Positions 12,820 to 24,136 of a stretch of 48,029 nucleotides of DNA are shown here, one piece after another. The position numbers and the translations under genes were made by a program. The DNA comes from Ammonifex sp. (GTDB taxonomy: Bacteria > Bacillota > Desulfotomaculia > Desulfotomaculales > Ammonificaceae). Where the stretch lies: contig QZIW01000034.1 of assembly GCA_003604985.1 (NCBI GenBank), positions 1 to 48,029 on the forward strand, written 5' to 3'. How positions within the stretch are numbered: position 1 is the first letter of the stretch; every line of letters starts with the position of its first letter. The notes under the pieces were generated by a model. The model searched no databases, was not told the DNA's origin, and saw only the letters and a list, made by a program, of their open reading frames with translations.

Positions 12820-13710
12820 ATGGCTAAGAAATTAGGTTTGGCCCTCGGCGGCGGGTTCAGCCGCGGCGCGGCCCATATCGGTGTGCTCAAGATTCTGGAG
12901 GAGGCAGGCATTAAACCCGCAGTGATAGCCGGTACCAGCGCGGGAAGCATCGTCGCCGCTTTATACGCCGCTGGTTGGACTGTTCAAGAGATGGAGCATT
13001 TTTCCCGTACGCTGTCTCCCCGGGAGCTGATAGACGACCGGTTAACCGCAAAACTGTGGCGACTTTTAGTGCACGAGGTCCGCCACCGGTTGAGGCGGAA
13101 GCCGCGTGCCGGCGGACCGCTGGGCGTTCTCTCGGGGCAGCGCCTGGCCGCGTTCCTGGAGAGGCTATTCGGCGCGCGGCGGTTCGATGAGCTTAAGCTC
13201 CCGCTGGTCGTTACGGCAACGGATCTCGTGAGCGGCCGCAGGATCCTTTTTATGCCGGCCCCTCTGTGCCGTGACGAGTTCGTCCGTCTTGCCAGGATAC
13301 CGGTTGCTTCGGCCATTCGCGCAAGTTGTACCGTACCCGGCCTTTTCGAGCCGGTGCGGTTGGAAAAGATGTTGCTGGTGGACGGGGCGATACGTGAAGC
13401 CATACCGGCGGAGGCGGTACGACTGCCCGGGATAGAAGCGGTGGTGGCGGTCGACGTCGGCGGCCGTACCGAAGAACGCCAGCCGCTGGAATTGTTTTCG
13501 GAGCTGGTGACCGAAGCCTGGGAGTTGGCGGTAAGCGAGGGCAAACGAAAGGAGCTTGAAACTTTCGCCGATGTGGTTATCGAGCCCGAGTTGAAAAAGA
13601 CTCCACCCTGGGACTTCAGCCGCGTCAGCCAGTACATGCGGGCCGGTGAGCAAGCGGCGCGGGCCAAATTGGGAGAGATACGGAGAGTACTGGAATTAGA
13701 CGTCCGCTGA
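12820..13710 (+). CDS. patatin-like phospholipase family protein (RssA-like)
   Basis: 296 aa; GGGFSRGAAHIGVLKILEE, GTSAGSIVAALYAAG (GxSxG nucleophile elbow), DGAIREAIP. Confidence 0.92.
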   Translation: MAKKLGLALGGGFSRGAAHIGVLKILEEAGIKPAVIAGTSAGSIVAALYAAGWTVQEMEHFSRTLSPRELIDDRLTAKLWRLLVHEVRHRLRRKPRAGGPLGVLSGQRLAAFLERLFGARRFDELKLPLVVTATDLVSGRRILFMPAPLCRDEFVRLARIPVASAIRASCTVPGLFEPVRLEKMLLVDGAIREAIPAEAVRLPGIEAVVAVDVGGRTEERQPLELFSELVTEAWELAVSEGKRKELETFADVVIEPELKKTPPWDFSRVSQYMRAGEQAARAKLGEIRRVLELDVR

Positions 13711-13845
13711 GCCGGGATCGTCCAGGTTTATTACCACCGTGTCTACGGGTGGATTAAAGTTGGTTCTTTTTCGGCGCGGCGGAAGGCTGGCCGTTTTTAC
13801 CGCCGCCGTTCTCCGAACCGGCATCATAAACCTTTCGATACTTGC

Positions 13846-13880
13846 CAAAAAAAATAAAGGGTCTCCGGCCGGGGACCCTT
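13846..13880 (-). terminator. terminator downstream of tRNA-Leu
   Basis: GGGTCCCCGGCCGGAGACCC hairpin followed by TTTATTTTTTTT on the minus strand. Confidence 0.7.
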
Positions 13881-13890
13881 CACTCTCTTC

Positions 13891-13976
13891 TGGTGCGGGT
13901 GAGAGGATTTGAACCTCCACGGGCTGAGCCCACCAGATCCTAAGTCTGGCGCGTCTGCCATTCCGCCACACCCGCA
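13891..13976 (-). tRNA. tRNA-Leu (anticodon UAG)
   Basis: minus strand TGCGGGTGTGGCGGAATGGCAGACGCGCCAGACTTAGGATCTGGTGGGC...GTGGAGGTTCAAATCCTCTCACCCGCACCA; class II tRNA with encoded CCA. Confidence 0.95.
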
Positions 13977-14272
13977 TTTCCTTTTTTAAATTATAGGGCT
14001 CTTGCCCACAATCGTCAATAAACCAGTGGCCCCACAGCGTAGGTCACCGTCCGTTCCTAAGCACTTTGTCATAAAATCACAATCCTCTAAAAATAAAGGA
14101 GGATTTTGGAACATAATGTCGTATTAATTAGTTCCGATATATGGGATTATAAGACGTCGTGTACCCGTTAACCAAGTTTCCTCCATAACGCAAACTCACC
14201 AAGAAGGGAGGATTTAGGCAACTTTTAAAGAAAATAATTAATTTTAGGCCTCATTTTGTTAGGAGGGATACG

Positions 14273-16306
14273 GTGCCGAAAATCGGCGTCTACCTCTGTC
14301 ACTGCGGCGAAAATATCGCCGGCGCCGTCAACATCGAAGAAGTTAAAAAACACGCCGCAAACCTGCCCGGCGTAGCAGTGGTCAGGGATTATTTATTCAT
14401 TTGTTCTGACCCGGGACAAGATTTAATCAAACAGGACATCCAAGCGGGCCTGGTTAACCGGGTGGTGGTGGCGGCCTGTACGCCCCGCACCCACGAGCCG
14501 ATTTTCCGTAAGACGGTGCAGGACGGCGGCCTCAACAAGTACATCTGCGAAATGGCCAACATCCGGGACCAGGGCAGCTGGGCGCACTGGCGCGACAAGG
14601 AAGGGGCAACGGAAAAAGCCAAGAAACTGGTTATGAGCGCCGTGGCCAAGGCCGCTCTGTTGGAACCCCTGGAAGACAGGTTTGTCAATGTGACCAAGGC
14701 CTCTCTGGTGGTCGGCGCCGGTGTCGCCGGGATGTTTGCGGCCATGGACCTGGCCAACATGGGATACAAAGTCTACCTGGTCGACAGGAACCCTTCGGTC
14801 GGTGGGAACATGGCCAAGCTCGACAAGACTTTCCCCACCAACGACTGCTCGGCCTGTATTCTTACCCCGGTTATGGTTCAGGTAGGGACACATCCTAACA
14901 TCGAGCTGCTGACGTATTCGGAAGTAGAGTCCGTGGACGGCTCCATCGGGAACTTCAAGGTCAAGATCAGAAAGAAACAAACCTACGTTGATTGGAATAC
15001 GTGTACCGGTTGCGGTGAATGCATCGAAGTGTGCCCGAAAAAAGTCCCGAACGAATTCAACGAGGGTATGGGTACGCGCAAGGCGATTTACATCGAGTTT
15101 CCCCAGGCGGTGCCGAAGAAAGCCGTCGTGGACGGGGCACACTGCATCAACTGCGGCAAACGGACAATCGGCACCAAGCCGCGGCTGCATTCCAAGACCG
15201 GAGAACCTGTCCTTGCCCCGTGCGAAAAAGTGTGCAAAATAGGGGCATGCGACCGGTCTGTCGCGTACGACCCCGACGGTGAATTGGTCGAGCTTGAAGT
15301 GGGTACAATTGTTGTGGCCACCGGCTTCAAGGCCATGGATAAAACTCCCTTTAAGGAATACTCGCCCCAGTCGCCCAATGTGGTCACCGCTTTGCAGCTG
15401 GAACGACTTCTTTCGGCGACCGGTCCTACAGAGGGAGACCTCAAGCGCCCGTCCGACGAGACAAAGCCGGAAACCGTGGCCTTCATCTCTTGCGTGGGGA
15501 GCCGCGATAAAAACCACCACACCTATTGTTCCAAGGTGTGCTGCATGTACATGCTCAAGCAAGCGCGGTTGATTAAGGAAAAAAATCCCGGCACCAACGT
15601 GTTCATCTTCTTCATCGACGTCAGGGCCGGTGGTAAAGACTTTGAGGAGTACTACAGCTACTGCCGCGACCTCGGTATCAGGGTCATCAGGGGCCGGGTG
15701 GGTGCTGTTGACGAGTTGGCCGGCGACCGTTTGAGAGTGCGCGCCTACGACGTGGATATGGGCAGCGCCGTGGAACTGGAGTCGGACCTGGTGGTCTTGG
15801 CCACCGCCATCGAACCCGCGCCCGGTCTCGAAGAACTGGGTAGAAGGCTGGGCATCTCCTGCGGCGCGGAAGGGTTCCTAAAGGAAGTCCACACCAAGCT
15901 TTACCCGGTGGAGACCGCGGTAAGGGGGATTTACATCGCCGGGTGCGTTCAGGGACCGAAGGACATCCCGGATTCGATCTCCCAGGCGCGGGCAGCGTCA
16001 TCGGCGGCGGCAGTCCCGCTGACCCTCGGCAAGGTTGTGGTCGAACCGCTGATTTCCGAAATAAATCAGGAGAACTGCAGCGGGTGCGGCATCTGCGTAC
16101 CCCTTTGCCCCTACTCCGCCGTGGCCATGACGACGGTAGGCGATAAGCCGCGGGCTAAAATCGATGAAGCCCTGTGCGCCGGCTGCGGCGTCTGTACCGC
16201 AGCATGCCCGTCGCGCGCCATTAAGCTGCACGGCTTTACCGCGGAACAAATCGAGGCGCAAATTATCGCCCTGACGGCCGGCATTGGGGGTGTTTCTTAT
16301 GTCTAG
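14273..16306 (+). CDS. hdrA: CoB-CoM heterodisulfide reductase HdrA-like FAD/iron-sulfur protein
   Basis: 677 aa; N-terminal MPKIGVYLCHCGENIAG, Rossmann ASLVVGAGVAGMFAAMDLA, several ferredoxin motifs (CTGCGECIEVCP, CSGCGICVPLCP, CAGCGVCTAACP). Confidence 0.95.
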   Translation: MPKIGVYLCHCGENIAGAVNIEEVKKHAANLPGVAVVRDYLFICSDPGQDLIKQDIQAGLVNRVVVAACTPRTHEPIFRKTVQDGGLNKYICEMANIRDQGSWAHWRDKEGATEKAKKLVMSAVAKAALLEPLEDRFVNVTKASLVVGAGVAGMFAAMDLANMGYKVYLVDRNPSVGGNMAKLDKTFPTNDCSACILTPVMVQVGTHPNIELLTYSEVESVDGSIGNFKVKIRKKQTYVDWNTCTGCGECIEVCPKKVPNEFNEGMGTRKAIYIEFPQAVPKKAVVDGAHCINCGKRTIGTKPRLHSKTGEPVLAPCEKVCKIGACDRSVAYDPDGELVELEVGTIVVATGFKAMDKTPFKEYSPQSPNVVTALQLERLLSATGPTEGDLKRPSDETKPETVAFISCVGSRDKNHHTYCSKVCCMYMLKQARLIKEKNPGTNVFIFFIDVRAGGKDFEEYYSYCRDLGIRVIRGRVGAVDELAGDRLRVRAYDVDMGSAVELESDLVVLATAIEPAPGLEELGRRLGISCGAEGFLKEVHTKLYPVETAVRGIYIAGCVQGPKDIPDSISQARAASSAAAVPLTLGKVVVEPLISEINQENCSGCGICVPLCPYSAVAMTTVGDKPRAKIDEALCAGCGVCTAACPSRAIKLHGFTAEQIEAQIIALTAGIGGVSYV

Positions 16307-16880
16307 CACCCCGGAAGAGGAGCGTAAAACAATTAACCTGTCAACCGGCGATTCTGGTTTTTTAAGCGAGATAAAGGCACTGGGAGCGGGGGACATCCTG
16401 GAGTGCATCCAGTGTGCCAAGTGCGCGGCCACTTGCCCCCTGGTCCTTGCCGGTTTCAATTTCTTTAACAAGCGGATCATTCAAGCGATTTTTCTCGGCA
16501 CGAGAGAAACGCTTTTGGACGACCCTTCAATCTGGGCCTGCCAGTCGTGCAACCGGTGCACCGAAGTCTGTCCCCGTAAACTTAAGCCGTTTGAGGTGAT
16601 TATGGCCATGCGCCGGGTGGCTGTACGCGAGTTCGCCCTTCCCACGATGGCCATTGAGGGCATCAAGTCTCTTTACGACGTGGGACATGCCGTCTATCTG
16701 TCGCAAGCAGGACGGTCGAGGGCAAGTGTGGGGCTCCCCGAGAGGCCGTACTCCACGGCTTCGAACCCCCGGGCGCTCAAGGAACTCCAGGCTCTACTGG
16801 GCAAAACGGCTCTGGCGGACCTGGGCATTATCCCGATGGGTGGCCCCGATGTCTCTGGAACGTGTGAGGTGGGCCAATGA
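16299..16880 (+). CDS. hdrC: HdrC-like iron-sulfur subunit
   Basis: two 4Fe-4S motifs CIQCAKCAATCP and CQSCNRCTEVCP; ATG at 16299 (MSSTPEEE) preferred over ORF start 16284; 8-nt overlap with hdrA. Confidence 0.93.
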   Translation: MSSTPEEERKTINLSTGDSGFLSEIKALGAGDILECIQCAKCAATCPLVLAGFNFFNKRIIQAIFLGTRETLLDDPSIWACQSCNRCTEVCPRKLKPFEVIMAMRRVAVREFALPTMAIEGIKSLYDVGHAVYLSQAGRSRASVGLPERPYSTASNPRALKELQALLGKTALADLGIIPMGGPDVSGTCEVGQ

Positions 16881-17767
16881 AAGTAGGGTTTTTTGTCGGC
16901 TGCAACACCGCGTTTAACAGGCCGGATCTTGAACGGGCTGTAAGATACGTATACCCGGCGCTGGGAGTCGAACTGGATGAGCTGGACGGCCAGTCCTGCT
17001 GCCCCACCTGGGGAACGATGCCTTCCATCGACCTTGCAGGCTGGTGCGCGGTAGGAGCGAGGAACTACACCATCGCCGAAGAAAAGGGGCTGGACATGGT
17101 GACGGTGTGCGGCAGTTGCTACGGCAGCCTGGCCGAAACCGCACACAAGATCAAATCGGACCCCGGGGTGAAGAGCCGCGTAAACGAACTTCTCGGGGTT
17201 ATCGGCAAGGAGTTTAAAGGTACGAGCCGGATCAGGCACGCGGTCTACCACCTTTATCAAGAGGTCGGCCTCGACACGTTGAAGGAATTTATCAAGTACC
17301 AGCTCGGGGGGCTCAAAATAGCCGTCCAACCGGGCTGCCATTCCCTCTGGCCGAGCGACGCATACGTCGACGGTGAAGAGGACACGTTTCACCCCACGGT
17401 CTTGCGGGAACTCTGCGAAGCGCTCGGCGCTTCGGCCCCGTATTACAGCCGGTTACTGGACTGCTGCGGCATGGGGGGAATGCGGAGTACCGATATGGAC
17501 AAGTCTTTCAAGCTGGTGGAAACGAAGCTGTCCTCCATGAAGGAGGAGGTCGAACCGGACCTGATCGTGACCGGTTGCAGTTCTTGTTTGATCCAACTGG
17601 ACACCGCGCAGGATTTTCTCAAGAAGGACGGCAAGATCAACTACGAAATCCCGGCAATCCACTACGTGCAACTGCTGGCGATATGCATGGGCGCCGACCC
17701 GCAACAGGTTACAGGTCTTGCCCGGACAAAGGTCGACCGGGTCGTGAACAGGATTTTGGAGGGATAA
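16877..17767 (+). CDS. hdrB: HdrB-like subunit (two CCG domains)
   Basis: 296 aa; MKVGFFVGCNTAFNRPDLERA, CCPTW...CGSCYGSL and DCCGMGGM...GCSSCLIQL CCG-type cysteine motifs. Confidence 0.95.
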   Translation: MKVGFFVGCNTAFNRPDLERAVRYVYPALGVELDELDGQSCCPTWGTMPSIDLAGWCAVGARNYTIAEEKGLDMVTVCGSCYGSLAETAHKIKSDPGVKSRVNELLGVIGKEFKGTSRIRHAVYHLYQEVGLDTLKEFIKYQLGGLKIAVQPGCHSLWPSDAYVDGEEDTFHPTVLRELCEALGASAPYYSRLLDCCGMGGMRSTDMDKSFKLVETKLSSMKEEVEPDLIVTGCSSCLIQLDTAQDFLKKDGKINYEIPAIHYVQLLAICMGADPQQVTGLARTKVDRVVNRILEG

Positions 17768-17770
17768 AGA

Positions 17771-18196
17771 ATGAGTGAATGGAAACCCAACATCGTGGTT
17801 TTTGCCTGCGATTGGTGCACGTACCAGGGAGCCGACCTTGCGGGTAGCCTGCGCTACGAATATCCCGCCAACGTCAACATCATCAGGGTGCCTTGCACCG
17901 GGCGGGTGGAACCCGAGTTTATCGTATCAGCTCTTAGTAACGGCGCCGACGGCGTTTTTGTGGGCGGTTGCCATCCGGGTGACTGCCACTACAAGGAAGG
18001 CAACTACAAAGCCATGCGGAGATTCACCCTCCTGAAGATGGTCCTGACCGGTATGGGATTCGAGGCCGAAAGGGTAAGGATGGAGTGGATCTCCGGTTCG
18101 GAGGGCAAGCGGTTTGCGGAAATTATGGCCGAGTTCAACAGGACCATCGAAAAAATCGGGCCAAACCCATTCAGGAGGGACAGCAATGCCGGATAA
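17771..18196 (+). CDS. mvhD: MvhD/FlpD-like hydrogenase delta (electron-transfer) subunit
   Basis: 141 aa; NIVVFACDWCTYQGADLAGSLRYEYP, VGGCHPGDCHYKEGN. Confidence 0.95.
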   Translation: MSEWKPNIVVFACDWCTYQGADLAGSLRYEYPANVNIIRVPCTGRVEPEFIVSALSNGADGVFVGGCHPGDCHYKEGNYKAMRRFTLLKMVLTGMGFEAERVRMEWISGSEGKRFAEIMAEFNRTIEKIGPNPFRRDSNAG

Positions 18197-19145
18197 AGTG
18201 AAGCTCGCATATTTCCTCTCCGGCGGGTGCGGCGGCTGCGACATGGCGATCATCGACCTCTCGGAAACGCTGGTGGACGTCCTCCCCTACTTAGAAGTGG
18301 TCTTCTGGGCGCCGACGGTGGCCGATGTGAAGTATAAAGACCTTGAAGCCATGCCCGACAAATCGATAGACGTCGGCCTCTACTCGGGTATGGTGCGGCT
18401 AAGTGAGCAGGAACACATCGCCAGGGTTATGCGCCGGAAGTGCAAGGTCCTGGTCGCCTACGGCGCATGCGCCGCGCTGGGCGGCATCCCGGGTATGGGC
18501 AACATGCATACCAGAGAAGACATCTTCCAGACCGCTTACTTCGACACCTACAGTACGGACAATCCGGAGGGCGTGACCCCGCAGGTGCGGTGCGTCGTGG
18601 ACGGTAAGTACGAACTCACGCTGCCCGAGTTCTACGGTTACGTCAGGCCGCTTCAGCATGTTGTCGACGTCGACTACTTCAGCGGCGGCTGCCCGCCGCA
18701 TCATTCCTTCGTTGGCCAGGCGGTGGTCGCCGTCCTGGAAGGAGAACTGCCCCCCCCGGGCTCGTGGATCACAAGCGGCAAAGCGGTCTGCGACGTTTGC
18801 GACCGGAACCCGGCTGGCCGGGGCGAACAAAGGCATTTAATCCAGTCGGTCAAGCGCACTATCGACGGCGTTCCGGAAGAAGGGAAATGCCTCCTGCAGC
18901 AAGGCTACCTCTGCCTCGGCGCGGTGACTCAGGGCGACTGCGGCTCGCTCTGCCCCCAGGTAAATATTCCTTGCAGGGGCTGCGGCGGACCGATCCCGGG
19001 TGTAAAGGATTTCGGCCTGCGCGCCATCGGCTCCATCGCGGCGTCGCTGGAGAAAGAAGAACTGGTTGAACAAATCCCCAGCCCGGTGAAGCTTTTCTAC
19101 CGGTACTCGCTACCCGCTTCGATGCTGGGCAGAAAGATAAAGTGA
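18186..19145 (+). CDS. mvhG: F420-non-reducing-type [NiFe] hydrogenase small subunit
   Basis: MPDKVKLAYFLSGGCGGCDMAIIDLSE; GACAALGGIPGMGN; C-terminal Fe-S cysteines; ATG at 18186 preferred over ORF start 18114; overlaps mvhD end. Confidence 0.94.
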   Translation: MPDKVKLAYFLSGGCGGCDMAIIDLSETLVDVLPYLEVVFWAPTVADVKYKDLEAMPDKSIDVGLYSGMVRLSEQEHIARVMRRKCKVLVAYGACAALGGIPGMGNMHTREDIFQTAYFDTYSTDNPEGVTPQVRCVVDGKYELTLPEFYGYVRPLQHVVDVDYFSGGCPPHHSFVGQAVVAVLEGELPPPGSWITSGKAVCDVCDRNPAGRGEQRHLIQSVKRTIDGVPEEGKCLLQQGYLCLGAVTQGDCGSLCPQVNIPCRGCGGPIPGVKDFGLRAIGSIAASLEKEELVEQIPSPVKLFYRYSLPASMLGRKIK

Positions 19146-19155
19146 GGGATGAATC

Positions 19156-20619
19156 TTGACCTTAAAGAAGATCGAAATAAACCCGATGACGAGGCTGGAA
19201 GGGCACGGCAAAATCTCCGTTTTTTTAGACGAGCAGGGGAACGTGGACAACGTTTTCTTTCAAACCGTTGAGTTGAGAGGATACGAGCGGTTTCTCACGG
19301 GTATGCCTATAGAGGAAGTACCCCGGACGGTATCTACAATCTGCGGGGTGTGCAGGTGCGTGCACTTTACCGCAGCAGTGAAAGCCGCCGATGCTGTTTA
19401 TCACGTCCAACCGACACCGACTGCCAGGAAAATCAGGGAGCTGCTCCTAAATGCCCACTACGTCGAGGACCACACGGCGATCCTTTACGCCCTCGGTTTC
19501 CCGGACTTCGTGGTCGGCCCCACGGCCGATGCCGGAGCGAGGAACCTGATCGGTCTCATCCAGGCGGTTGGCGCGGACGTGGGCAAGCTGGTGCTCAGAA
19601 AGAGGTACGCCGCCGTCAAAGTAATAGAAATGCTGGGCGGTAAACCGATCCACCCGGTGGCGGCGCTTCCGGGCGGCTGGTCCAAGAGAGTGACGGAACA
19701 AGAAAGAACAGAGATACTCGCGCTCGCCGACGAAATGGTTGAACTAGGGGAACTCACCCTGAAAGTTTTCGGGGACGTCGTGCTGAAAAACCAGGACTAC
19801 ATGGACCTGGTCACGGGCGATGTGTACAAGGTCGTGTGCAATTACATGGGCACCGTAGACGATAAAAACCGGGTGCAGTACTACGACGGCACGCAGCGGA
19901 TTGTCGATACCGAGGGTAAGGAGATCGGTCGTTTTAAGGGCAAAGATTACCTGAAACACATCGCTGAAAGAGTGCTCCCCTGGAGCTACCTGAAGGTGCC
20001 TTACCTCAAAAACATCGGCTGGAAGGGCATCGTCGACGGCGAAGGGACGAGCCTATACAGTGTCGGGCCTCTTGCCAGGCTCAACGCCGCCGACGGTATG
20101 GATACCCCGCTCGCCCAGGAGGCTTACGAAAAGATGTACGCCACCTTCGGCGTCAAGCCGGTGCACAACATCCTTGCTTACCACTGGGCCCGGGCCATCG
20201 AGCTTTTGAATGCGGCCGAAAAGGCGCGCCAGCTCGCTTCCGACGAGAGCATTACCAGCCCCGATATCCGGGCCGAGCTCTGGGCGCCTGACGAGGGTGT
20301 GGGCGTCATCGAGGCGGTCCGCGGGGTGCTCATCCACCATTACAAAACAGATGATCGCGGCATCGTTCAGGAGGCCAACCTGATCGTGGCCACGACTCAT
20401 AACAACGGGCCGATTAACGTAGCCGTAAAGCGGGCGGCAGAGCATTTCATCAAGAACGGGAAGGTTGACGACGGCATCCTCAACCTGGTTGAGATGGCCT
20501 ACCGGCCTTATGACATCTGCCTGGCGTGCGCGACCCACACGCTCCCCGGCCGGCTGCCGCTTCAGTTGGATGTGTATGATTGCAAAGGAGAACTGTACAA
20601 GAGCCTGAGAAATTTCTAA
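19156..20619 (+). CDS. mvhA: group 3-type [NiFe] hydrogenase large subunit
   Basis: 487 aa, TTG start; L1 motif TICGVCRCVH, L2 motif YDICLACATH followed by a 26-aa C-terminal tail. Confidence 0.95.
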   Translation: MTLKKIEINPMTRLEGHGKISVFLDEQGNVDNVFFQTVELRGYERFLTGMPIEEVPRTVSTICGVCRCVHFTAAVKAADAVYHVQPTPTARKIRELLLNAHYVEDHTAILYALGFPDFVVGPTADAGARNLIGLIQAVGADVGKLVLRKRYAAVKVIEMLGGKPIHPVAALPGGWSKRVTEQERTEILALADEMVELGELTLKVFGDVVLKNQDYMDLVTGDVYKVVCNYMGTVDDKNRVQYYDGTQRIVDTEGKEIGRFKGKDYLKHIAERVLPWSYLKVPYLKNIGWKGIVDGEGTSLYSVGPLARLNAADGMDTPLAQEAYEKMYATFGVKPVHNILAYHWARAIELLNAAEKARQLASDESITSPDIRAELWAPDEGVGVIEAVRGVLIHHYKTDDRGIVQEANLIVATTHNNGPINVAVKRAAEHFIKNGKVDDGILNLVEMAYRPYDICLACATHTLPGRLPLQLDVYDCKGELYKSLRNF

Positions 20620-20638
20620 TAGACCGAGGGTTGGTGGG

Positions 20639-21082
20639 ATGCGGACCGTCCTTGTCGGGATCGGGAACCCCGTTTTGACCGACGATTCCGTCGGCATTCA
20701 GATCGCGCAGCATTTTGAAGGTCTGGTGGATACCGAGATCCTTATGACTACCGACTTTAAAGTGCTCGATAAGATACTGGGGTACGAGAGGGCGATTATC
20801 GTGGACGGGGTGCGGCTGGGGAATGAGCCCGGCACGGTGGTGGAATTCGACTTTAAGGATCTGATTTTCACCCATACTTTTTCCGGCACCCACAACCTAA
20901 GCCTGCCGACCACGCTCAGCATGGGCTATCAGCTATTCGGCGAAGAGATGCCGAAAGAAATTAAAATCATCGCCGTTGAGGTGGAGGATGTCGAGACCTT
21001 TGGTACGGAGTGCACACCGCACGTGAAAGCGGCGATCCCTCGCGCAGTCGAATTGGTGCGAAGCCATGTGCAAAACCGGTAG
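20639..21082 (+). CDS. hydrogenase maturation protease (HyaD/HycI-like)
   Basis: 147 aa; MRTVLVGIGNPVLTDDSVGIQIAQHF...FGTECTPHVKAAIPRAVEL. Confidence 0.94.
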   Translation: MRTVLVGIGNPVLTDDSVGIQIAQHFEGLVDTEILMTTDFKVLDKILGYERAIIVDGVRLGNEPGTVVEFDFKDLIFTHTFSGTHNLSLPTTLSMGYQLFGEEMPKEIKIIAVEVEDVETFGTECTPHVKAAIPRAVELVRSHVQNR

Positions 21083-21110
21083 GGCCCGGTCTTAATATCT
21101 GAAAAACTCC

Positions 21111-21138
21111 GGACCGCTGCTTGTGAGTGGTCCTTTTT
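21111..21138 (+). terminator. terminator of the hdr/mvh operon
   Basis: GGACCGCT-gcttgtg-AGTGGTCC stem followed by TTTTTATT. Confidence 0.7.
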
Positions 21139-23161: not shown

Positions 23162-24136
23162 TTATTCAAGCATTTCCAGGAAGGCGTCGATTCTGACTCT
23201 CGTTCGCGCGTCAAGCGGCTCGGGCCTGTCACCCTCAATGGTTAAGACCGGAACGTCAAGTATCCGGCGGATGATCATGTCCTCGATCTGCCGGAAGCAG
23301 AAGCTCTGGGCGTAGTGAATGACGCCGGCTATCTTACGCCGCTTCAGTTCGCGGGTGATATCCTCCAAACGGTAGAAAATGCCGTAAGGATAAGTGTACA
23401 GGAGATACTGCTCCACGAGGTCAACTTTCTCAAAAGGCATGGCAAACTGACGCTGGACCTCGTTAAAAACTACCCGGGCACCGCGTTCTTCAAAATAACC
23501 GTAAAGATCGGTGAAAATGGGCGGTACGCCGATATACCCCAAGCGTACCGTCGCCGGCCGGGAAGGGCGTTTTTCCGCCTCTGCCAGAAAAGAGTCGACC
23601 TTCCGCCGGTATTCCTGCACATCGCCCTGAAAGTCGCTGCAGCAGACCTGATAAAAATGATTTTCAAAGCCTGTCACCCTATCACCGGCGTAAGTCAGGT
23701 AGTCAATCTCCCGGACTCGCTGCCGTACCGCGTCAAGCCTGTCCTTGGCGGCATTCACCGCCGCCTGGTCTACACCGAAGTGTTCCATCAGGCACTCGAT
23801 CTGGGTCTCCAGGAGCCGGCGCTCCCTGTCGTACGGGTAAGCGAAAGGGATTATCCGGATACCCTCCAGTTCGAGGGTTTCCATGAGGGCGTGGGTATTG
23901 CTGCAGTCCCCCTGCGTTACGGCAACTACGGTCCTTATTTCCTGATCCCTCAAAACCGCCCCGTAAATTCCCTTTATCCAGCCGCAGACGTTGCGCGGGT
24001 AACCGGCCCGCTCCGCGACCTCGAGCAGTTCACCGGCGGTCTCGCTGGCGATGAACAAGTTGTTCAGGTCTACAGGCACCACACCCGCAGCGAACAGCAC
24101 CTCAACCGGAATCGTAGTGGTTAAACCGACTTTCAT
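23162..24136 (-). CDS. 2-hydroxyacyl-CoA dehydratase / HgdB-like family protein
   Basis: 324 aa; MKVGLTTTIPVEVLFAAGVVPVDLNNLF, NVCGWIKG, TQGDCSNTHAL, HYAQSFCFRQIEDMI cysteine-containing motifs. Confidence 0.85.
   Translation of the reverse strand: MKVGLTTTIPVEVLFAAGVVPVDLNNLFIASETAGELLEVAERAGYPRNVCGWIKGIYGAVLRDQEIRTVVAVTQGDCSNTHALMETLELEGIRIIPFAYPYDRERRLLETQIECLMEHFGVDQAAVNAAKDRLDAVRQRVREIDYLTYAGDRVTGFENHFYQVCCSDFQGDVQEYRRKVDSFLAEAEKRPSRPATVRLGYIGVPPIFTDLYGYFEERGARVVFNEVQRQFAMPFEKVDLVEQYLLYTYPYGIFYRLEDITRELKRRKIAGVIHYAQSFCFRQIEDMIIRRILDVPVLTIEGDRPEPLDARTRVRIDAFLEMLE

Follow-up and report, generated by a model that had tools for sequence, protein, structure and literature searches.

A predicted H2-dependent MvhADG-HdrABC operon of Ammonifex sp. 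belongs to a clade that co-occurs with dsrA

The operon and its subunits

We analyzed a seven-gene operon of Ammonifex sp. that encodes all six subunits of an MvhADG-HdrABC-type hydrogenase and heterodisulfide reductase. It lies on contig QZIW01000034.1 (contig C4), a 48,029-nucleotide stretch referred to here as the window, which is part of an 89-contig, 1.82 Mb metagenome-assembled genome (MAG) that is 73% complete. The genes occupy window positions 14273 to 21082 on the + strand in the order hdrA-hdrC-hdrB-mvhD-mvhG-mvhA-protease, each overlapping its neighbor or separated from it by at most 19 nucleotides. This layout bears out an earlier note on the same DNA, which had described a contiguous hdrACB-mvhDGA-protease unit followed by a hairpin and T tract. 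The putative terminator (21111–21138, + strand) consists of a GGACC hairpin and then TTTTTA (hairpin and T tract TTTTTATTGG at 21111–21133); we call it from its position, because terminator-like sites are as frequent in shuffled sequence (8.3) as in the region itself (8). The G+C content of the operon, 57.8%, is close to the 57.2% of the window.

All seven genes read on the + strand. The 677-residue HdrA (14273–16306) starts at a GTG codon with AGGAGGG ahead of it and comprises an N-terminal domain, an FAD (flavin adenine dinucleotide)/Rossmann domain, an inserted ferredoxin domain, and a C-terminal domain for two [4Fe-4S] clusters. The loop of the inserted ferredoxin domain is enlarged, with ≈22 additional residues between CxxC and CxxxC. 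HdrC (16299–16880) has two CxxCxxCxxxCP motifs for two [4Fe-4S] clusters, HdrB (16877–17767) has two CCG domains, and MvhD (17771–18196) is the [2Fe-2S] connector. MvhG, the hydrogenase small subunit (18186–19145, with an ATG start at 18186), is expected to carry three [4Fe-4S] clusters. The [NiFe] large subunit MvhA (19156–20619) begins at an uncertain TTG start and ends in a 26-residue extension past CATH (20539–20616), presumably cleaved by the operon's own HycI/HupD-type maturation protease (20639–21082), which scores above the TIGR00072 cut-off.

Pfam, NCBIfam, and PDB sequence searches assigned every subunit unambiguously to its methanogen counterpart. HdrA matched 8rvu_a (E = 1e-216), and the matches for the remaining subunits were 8rvu_b for HdrB (E = 1.6e-64), 5odc_F for MvhA (E = 4e-108), 9sfi_I for MvhG (E = 4e-61), 5odc_D for MvhD (E = 3.4e-49), and 7bkb_C for HdrC (E = 1.2e-22). 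The VhuA profile, at 380 bits, falls under its curated NCBIfam cut-off of 800, as does TIGR03288 for HdrB (247 bits, cut-off 345), and each is still the best-scoring family. In MvhA, the four cysteine ligands of the [NiFe] site in the L1 and L2 motifs (C63, C66, C455, and C458) are all present, and these cysteines, Glu15 of the L1 Glu motif, Arg389 of L3, and Asp453 of L2 are invariant. HdrB keeps 10 of 10 noncubane-cluster cysteines (C9, C41, C42, C78, C81, C154, C196, C197, C234, and C237), and the [4Fe-4S] cysteine motifs and GxGxxG of HdrA are invariant in comparison set A3.

For AlphaFold models of HdrA and MvhA, with pLDDT (predicted local distance difference test) values of 79.4 and 86, the solved structures ranking at or near the top were methanogen Hdr-Mvh chains (5odc/8rvu), with template modeling (TM) scores of 0.82/0.85 to 5odc_A and 0.84/0.91 to 5odc_F, respectively. 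With GxGxxG retained and the 0.82 match to 5odc_A, HdrA has the FAD fold.

The complexes of Methanothermococcus and Methanothermobacter (5odc, 8rvu, and 9sw2) thus share with the window the six subunits, the cofactor ligands, and the folds of HdrA and MvhA, and their HdrB is placed close by in the HdrB tree. They differ in that the window MvhA is only ≈37 to 40% identical and has other L1 and L2 motifs, the HdrA loop is larger, the shell around the HdrB clusters is swapped (K158W, CPFC to CSSC, and one residue missing after CCG), and the window side has no known coenzyme M or coenzyme B.

A clade with altered [NiFe]-site motifs

Alignment showed that the window MvhA departs from other bacterial MvhA at invariant or near-invariant positions. 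In a maximum likelihood tree of 71 MvhA sequences, it belongs to a group of 21, here termed clade X, that is monophyletic with 100/100 support on a stem of 0.63 and includes members of the Thermodesulfobacteriota, Nitrospirota, and Bacillota as well as one Archaeoglobaceae MAG. A search of named genomes returned a tight MvhA set at 63 to 77% identity, the next matches being at most 56% identical, and genomes of relatives contributed further members at 73 to 86%. Clade X is again monophyletic in the HdrB tree (100/100, stem 0.82), where it joins four methanogen HdrB (100/93), apart from ordinary bacterial HdrB; identities are 35 to 41% to the former and 26 to 30% to the latter. The phylogeny that the earlier note had proposed as a check thus sorts the window HdrB with methanogens.

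Loci with these seven genes in identical order occur in Bacillota, Nitrospirota, Thermodesulfobacteriota, and Archaeoglobaceae, and given this recurrence the arrangement is far beyond chance. In the Archaeoglobaceae MAG (L045), MvhA, HdrA, HdrB, MvhD, and MvhG are 62 to 72% identical to those of the window; contamination is unlikely, because an archaeal tRNA-splicing endonuclease adjoins the operon. Through L045 we infer that Archaeoglobus fulgidus and Archaeoglobus profundus also have a place in clade X. The Archaeoglobus Mvh:Hdl cluster is co-located (AF1372–AF1377; PMC3949148), and purification from A. profundus yielded a tight Mvh:Hdl complex (Mander 2004, cited in PMC2702500 and PMC3949148). 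Archaeoglobus Mvh:Hdl resembles the window in the seven-gene order, as represented by L045, and differs in that the window's host is bacterial. The published HdrACB-MvhDGA operon of Thermodesulfovibrio sp. N1 (THER_1123–1129; PMC5165239) likewise has the same gene order, and Thermodesulfovibrio MAGs L046 and L047 fall in clade X; the available text of PMC5165239 treats that operon as an ordinary Mvh-Hdr and does not remark on the clade or motif differences.

Trees, motifs, and gene order led us to reject the operon as an ordinary bacterial group 3c Mvh-Hdr. The ordinary type, found in Dehalococcoidia, Anaerolineales, and many phyla, has the same subunit set and MvhA ≈50 to 58% identical to that of the window, but its HdrB is only 23 to 34% identical, its order is usually hdrC-hdrB-hdrA-mvhD-mvhG-mvhA, its motifs are the canonical DPCxxC and RxCGxCP, and its genomes mostly have no dsrA.

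Two signatures at the [NiFe] site set clade X apart. The window L1 motif (19336–19368, + strand) reads T-I-C-G-V-C-R-C-V-H-F against the canonical R-I-C-G-V-C-P-x-x-H-H; across the clade, R-x-CGxC-P is replaced by T-x-CGxC-R, and the signature S-T-[IV]-C-G-x-[C/U]-R is present in 21 of 21 members and 0 of 115 other group 3c sequences. At L2 (20503–20538, + strand), R-P-Y-D-I-C-L-A-C-A-T-H stands against R-x-Y-D-P-C-x-x-C-A-T-H, with DPCxxC changed to D[IL]CxxC in 20 of 21 members (L158 keeps DPC) and in none of the 115. All 115 of the others keep the DPC proline, and most also have the L1 arginine. Errors or decay of a single gene were rejected as explanations, the changes being common to 21/21 and 20/21 members. 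Of the patterns given by Poudel 2018 (PMC6085437), ICGxCxxxH fits the window's ICGVCRCVH, with T and R as flanking residues in place of the R and P of other group 3c, and AYDPCxxCATH does not fit PYDICLACATH. That survey retained only MvhA with an AYDPC L2 motif, a filter by which clade-X MvhA would have been dropped.

The simplest reading of these sequences is that clade-X MvhA would be a working [NiFe] enzyme, because the ligands are invariant, the maturation protease is kept in every locus of sufficient length but L154 and L158, and the operon has hyp maturation genes at its flanks in L049, L156, L157, and L159; the last of these observations also favors an assembled [NiFe] site. The DPC proline and L1 arginine are jointly replaceable across several phyla, which makes the clade a natural variant series for second-shell chemistry of the [NiFe] site.

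A further feature of L1 is a TGA codon at its second cysteine position (ICGVU), which is found in many group 3c mvhA genes (L022, L026, L044, L046, L064, L077, L090, L103, L134, and L136–L149), mostly from sulfate-reducing Bacillota, plus two clade-X Nitrospirota. A conserved hairpin follows ≈20 nucleotides past the TGA (GGCCUCGGGUAAGGCC; AGCCUC..GGCU in clade X) and is absent in L026; its fold energies were not significantly lower than those of shuffles. selB scored above cut-off in all TGA-bearing genomes tested. A selenoprotein review gives the selenocysteine of MvhA as UxxC, another position than ICGVU.

Beyond the seven genes, we found no neighbors common to all clade-X loci. A gene of the FrhB/FdhB family flanks the operon in two Thermodesulfobacteriota (L051:11074–12156 and L052:2982–4085). 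In a Desulfohalobiaceae MAG (L053:316–5383), the gene after clade-X mvhG-mvhA-protease encodes a QmoB-like HdrA that includes an MvhD domain, a possible alternative partner; that genome yielded no clade-X HdrB. Upstream of hdrA in L155, L157, and L159 lies a sigma-54 activator that carries a fused [FeFe]-hydrogenase-like domain and is likely an H2 sensor. A convincing −24/−12-like site (TGGCAT-N5-TTGC) was found only in L157 and L159, ≈200 nucleotides before hdrA (p ≈ 0.015 each). No sigma-54 site was found upstream of the window hdrA, nor an H2-sensor [FeFe] gene in the window's own genome.

Association with dissimilatory sulfite reduction and the HdrB acceptor

dsrA scored above cut-off in 18 of 20 clade-X genomes, compared with 2 among the 39 named genomes whose MvhA is of the ordinary bacterial type (Fisher p = 5e-11, uncorrected for kinship). 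One of the remaining two has a dsrA fragment at a contig end, and the other (G411) has a weak partial dsrA match and full aprA. aprA was above cut-off in 18 of the 20 as well. One 99% complete relative (G330) has clade X and dsrA without aprA above cut-off, which points to the sulfite step and not to adenosine 5′-phosphosulfate reduction; this organism probably reduces sulfite or thiosulfate, not sulfate. Clade X implies dsr, not the reverse, because genomes with ordinary MvhA in the window's order also carry dsrA. The earlier note had offered sulfate-reducing, syntrophic, or acetogenic growth as the setting; sulfate or sulfite reduction is now favored among these, as clade X was found here essentially only in dsrA genomes.

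The earlier note had proposed dsr and Wood-Ljungdahl genes as a check of genome context. In the window's own MAG, dsrMK-dsrC, DsrK-like proteins, and acsB of the Wood-Ljungdahl pathway are present, and the DsrC on contig C3 scores above the TIGR03342 cut-off and has both C-terminal cysteines (end ACKIAGLPKPTGCV); dsrA and aprA were not found.

The HdrB cluster shell of clade X differs from that of the four methanogen HdrB by I10N, G49P, H151Q, K158W, and F236S in 18 of 18 sequences and by P235S in 17 of 18, and it has one residue fewer after CCG. The last CxxC is C-S-S-C in clade-X HdrB, C-S-[IN]-C in the DsrK of the window's own genome, and C-P-F-C in methanogens, a weak hint from sequence at a DsrK-like substrate for clade X.

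Judging from the encoded proteins, the operon is highly likely to make an H2-using complex that bifurcates electrons at HdrA. The earlier note had predicted such a complex, passing electrons from H2 to ferredoxin and a disulfide by way of the HdrA FAD, and subunit content, ligands, fold, and synteny lend it support. It would be a soluble flavin-based electron-bifurcating H2:ferredoxin/disulfide oxidoreductase of a type specific to sulfate reducers. The [NiFe] site of MvhA would oxidize H2, with electrons moving via MvhG and MvhD to the HdrA FAD. One branch would lead through the HdrA ferredoxin domains to ferredoxin and so to CO2 fixation by the acetyl-CoA pathway, and the other through HdrC and the two HdrB noncubane clusters to a protein disulfide or trisulfide, most likely on oxidized DsrC from dissimilatory sulfite reductase. 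Given such a complex, DsrC is probably the acceptor, a specific candidate for the HdrB substrate that the earlier note had left unnamed. On balance we favor the full statement, in which subunits, ligands, fold, clade, gene order, and the co-occurrence with dsrA are observed and complex formation, bifurcation, the direction of electron flow, and DsrC as acceptor are all inferred.

There is precedent for DsrC in the FlxABCD-HdrABC of Desulfovibrio, for which direct DsrC binding has been reported (Ferreira 2023, cited in PMC10553843). It shares an HdrABC core tied to DsrC in sulfate reducers (PMC10553843 and PMC4759654) and differs in drawing on NADH via Flx, without a hydrogenase. The purified Mvh:Hdl complex of A. 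profundus is a further precedent, and ferredoxin formation with DsrC-type disulfides has been modeled for A. fulgidus (PMC3949148).

Several points weigh against an H2-driven DsrC reductase. dsrAB and aprA were both searched for in the 73% complete MAG without success, although dsrA was found in genus-mates G300 and G301 (the latter 81% complete). MvhA is without residues conserved in other group 3c enzymes, so that H2 activity is not assured. The Archaeoglobus mvh:hdl genes are weakly transcribed on H2/thiosulfate (Hocking 2014, PMC3949148), and PMC3949148 sends the electrons for sulfite via Vht hydrogenase and membrane-bound Hdr complexes. The co-occurrence with dsrA could have arisen by gene exchange among anaerobes that share habitats. 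Finally, dsrC is adjacent to none of the clade-X operons seen.

This last observation also suits a rather unlikely alternative, in which the same bifurcating complex has low-molecular-weight thiol disulfides, persulfides, or thioredoxin-like proteins as HdrB acceptor and the link to dsr comes from a reducing way of life that the hosts have in common. For the hdrCBA-mvhDGA of Thermosulfurimonas, a part in persulfide chemistry has been proposed (PMC4911364). However, clade X is seen only in sulfate- or sulfite-reducing lineages, across several phyla, whereas ordinary MvhA-linked operons are present in many dsr-free anaerobes. The reverse reaction, confurcation of reduced ferredoxin and reduced DsrC or another dithiol to H2 during fermentative or syntrophic growth, we regard as improbable. 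Mvh-Hdr reactions have been called reversible (PMC6085437) and several relatives have a second, ordinary MvhA, but the acsB of the window's own genome requires low-potential ferredoxin, and the sigma-54/[FeFe]-like regulators that precede the operon in L155, L157, and L159 resemble H2 sensors. Least credible is a catalytically altered or poor [NiFe] site with the HdrABC-MvhD core mainly serving another donor (formate dehydrogenase, for instance, or a protein like FrhB): the substitutions round the site (R to T, P to R, P to I/L), the FrhB-like gene beside the operon in L051 and L052, and the use of MvhD by both FdhAB and MvhAG in methanogens (PMC6085437) would fit it, but the four cysteine ligands, L1 Glu motif, L3 Arg, and L2 Asp are invariant, nearly all loci have the C-terminal extension and protease, and hyp genes are nearby.

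Returning to DsrC as acceptor, we suggest tentatively that clade X may be a hydrogenase-Hdr with a function of its own, which passed between archaea and several bacterial phyla as a component of dissimilatory sulfite reduction. Its [NiFe] second shell (T in place of R, R in place of P, and I or L in place of the DPC proline) and its HdrB pocket would then be tuned to the DsrC trisulfide. The complex might act as a soluble H2-driven DsrC reductase that yields reduced ferredoxin beside the membrane route through DsrMKJOP. The question bears on the source of low-potential ferredoxin in H2-grown sulfate reducers and on what bacterial HdrB reduces, and a dsrA-tied clade with an HdrB cluster shell unlike that of methanogens makes the acceptor testable with DsrC.

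Additional hdr genes and neighbors

A second clade-X hdrC-hdrB pair lies on contig C15 of the same MAG (L012:5320–6776), beside nusG-rplK-rplA, and its HdrB is 70% identical to that of the window. The sister genome G300 has the clade-X operon in the same surroundings but without hdrCB, and it has no clade-X hdrB other than the copy next to nusG; in G300, therefore, the HdrA-Mvh unit very probably relies on this nusG-linked pair. A Qmo/Apr-linked HdrCB has been described for Desulfotomaculum (PMC4759654); we disfavor this identity for the C15 pair, since in G300, G302, and G303 an hdrC-like gene is already part of the apr-qmo locus. As far as our tools show, this relocated pair, the clade as a unit across phyla, the two active-site signatures, the dsrA association, and the HdrB shell are new.

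A third Hdr unit, of ordinary type, is on contig C7 (L013:5557–11894). It comprises hdrC-hdrB-hdrA-mvhD and two iron-sulfur proteins, one of them like sulfhydrogenase beta/AsrA, and has no hydrogenase large subunit.

Just upstream of the operon, a tRNA-Leu (tag) gene occupies window positions 13891 to 13975 on the − strand; the 93-residue open reading frame that overlies it (13696 to 13977) is not a gene. Downstream, positions 23162 to 24136 encode a protein related to double-cubane-cluster reductases (2-hydroxyacyl-CoA dehydratase D-like), which is conserved next to the operon in G300 and G304.

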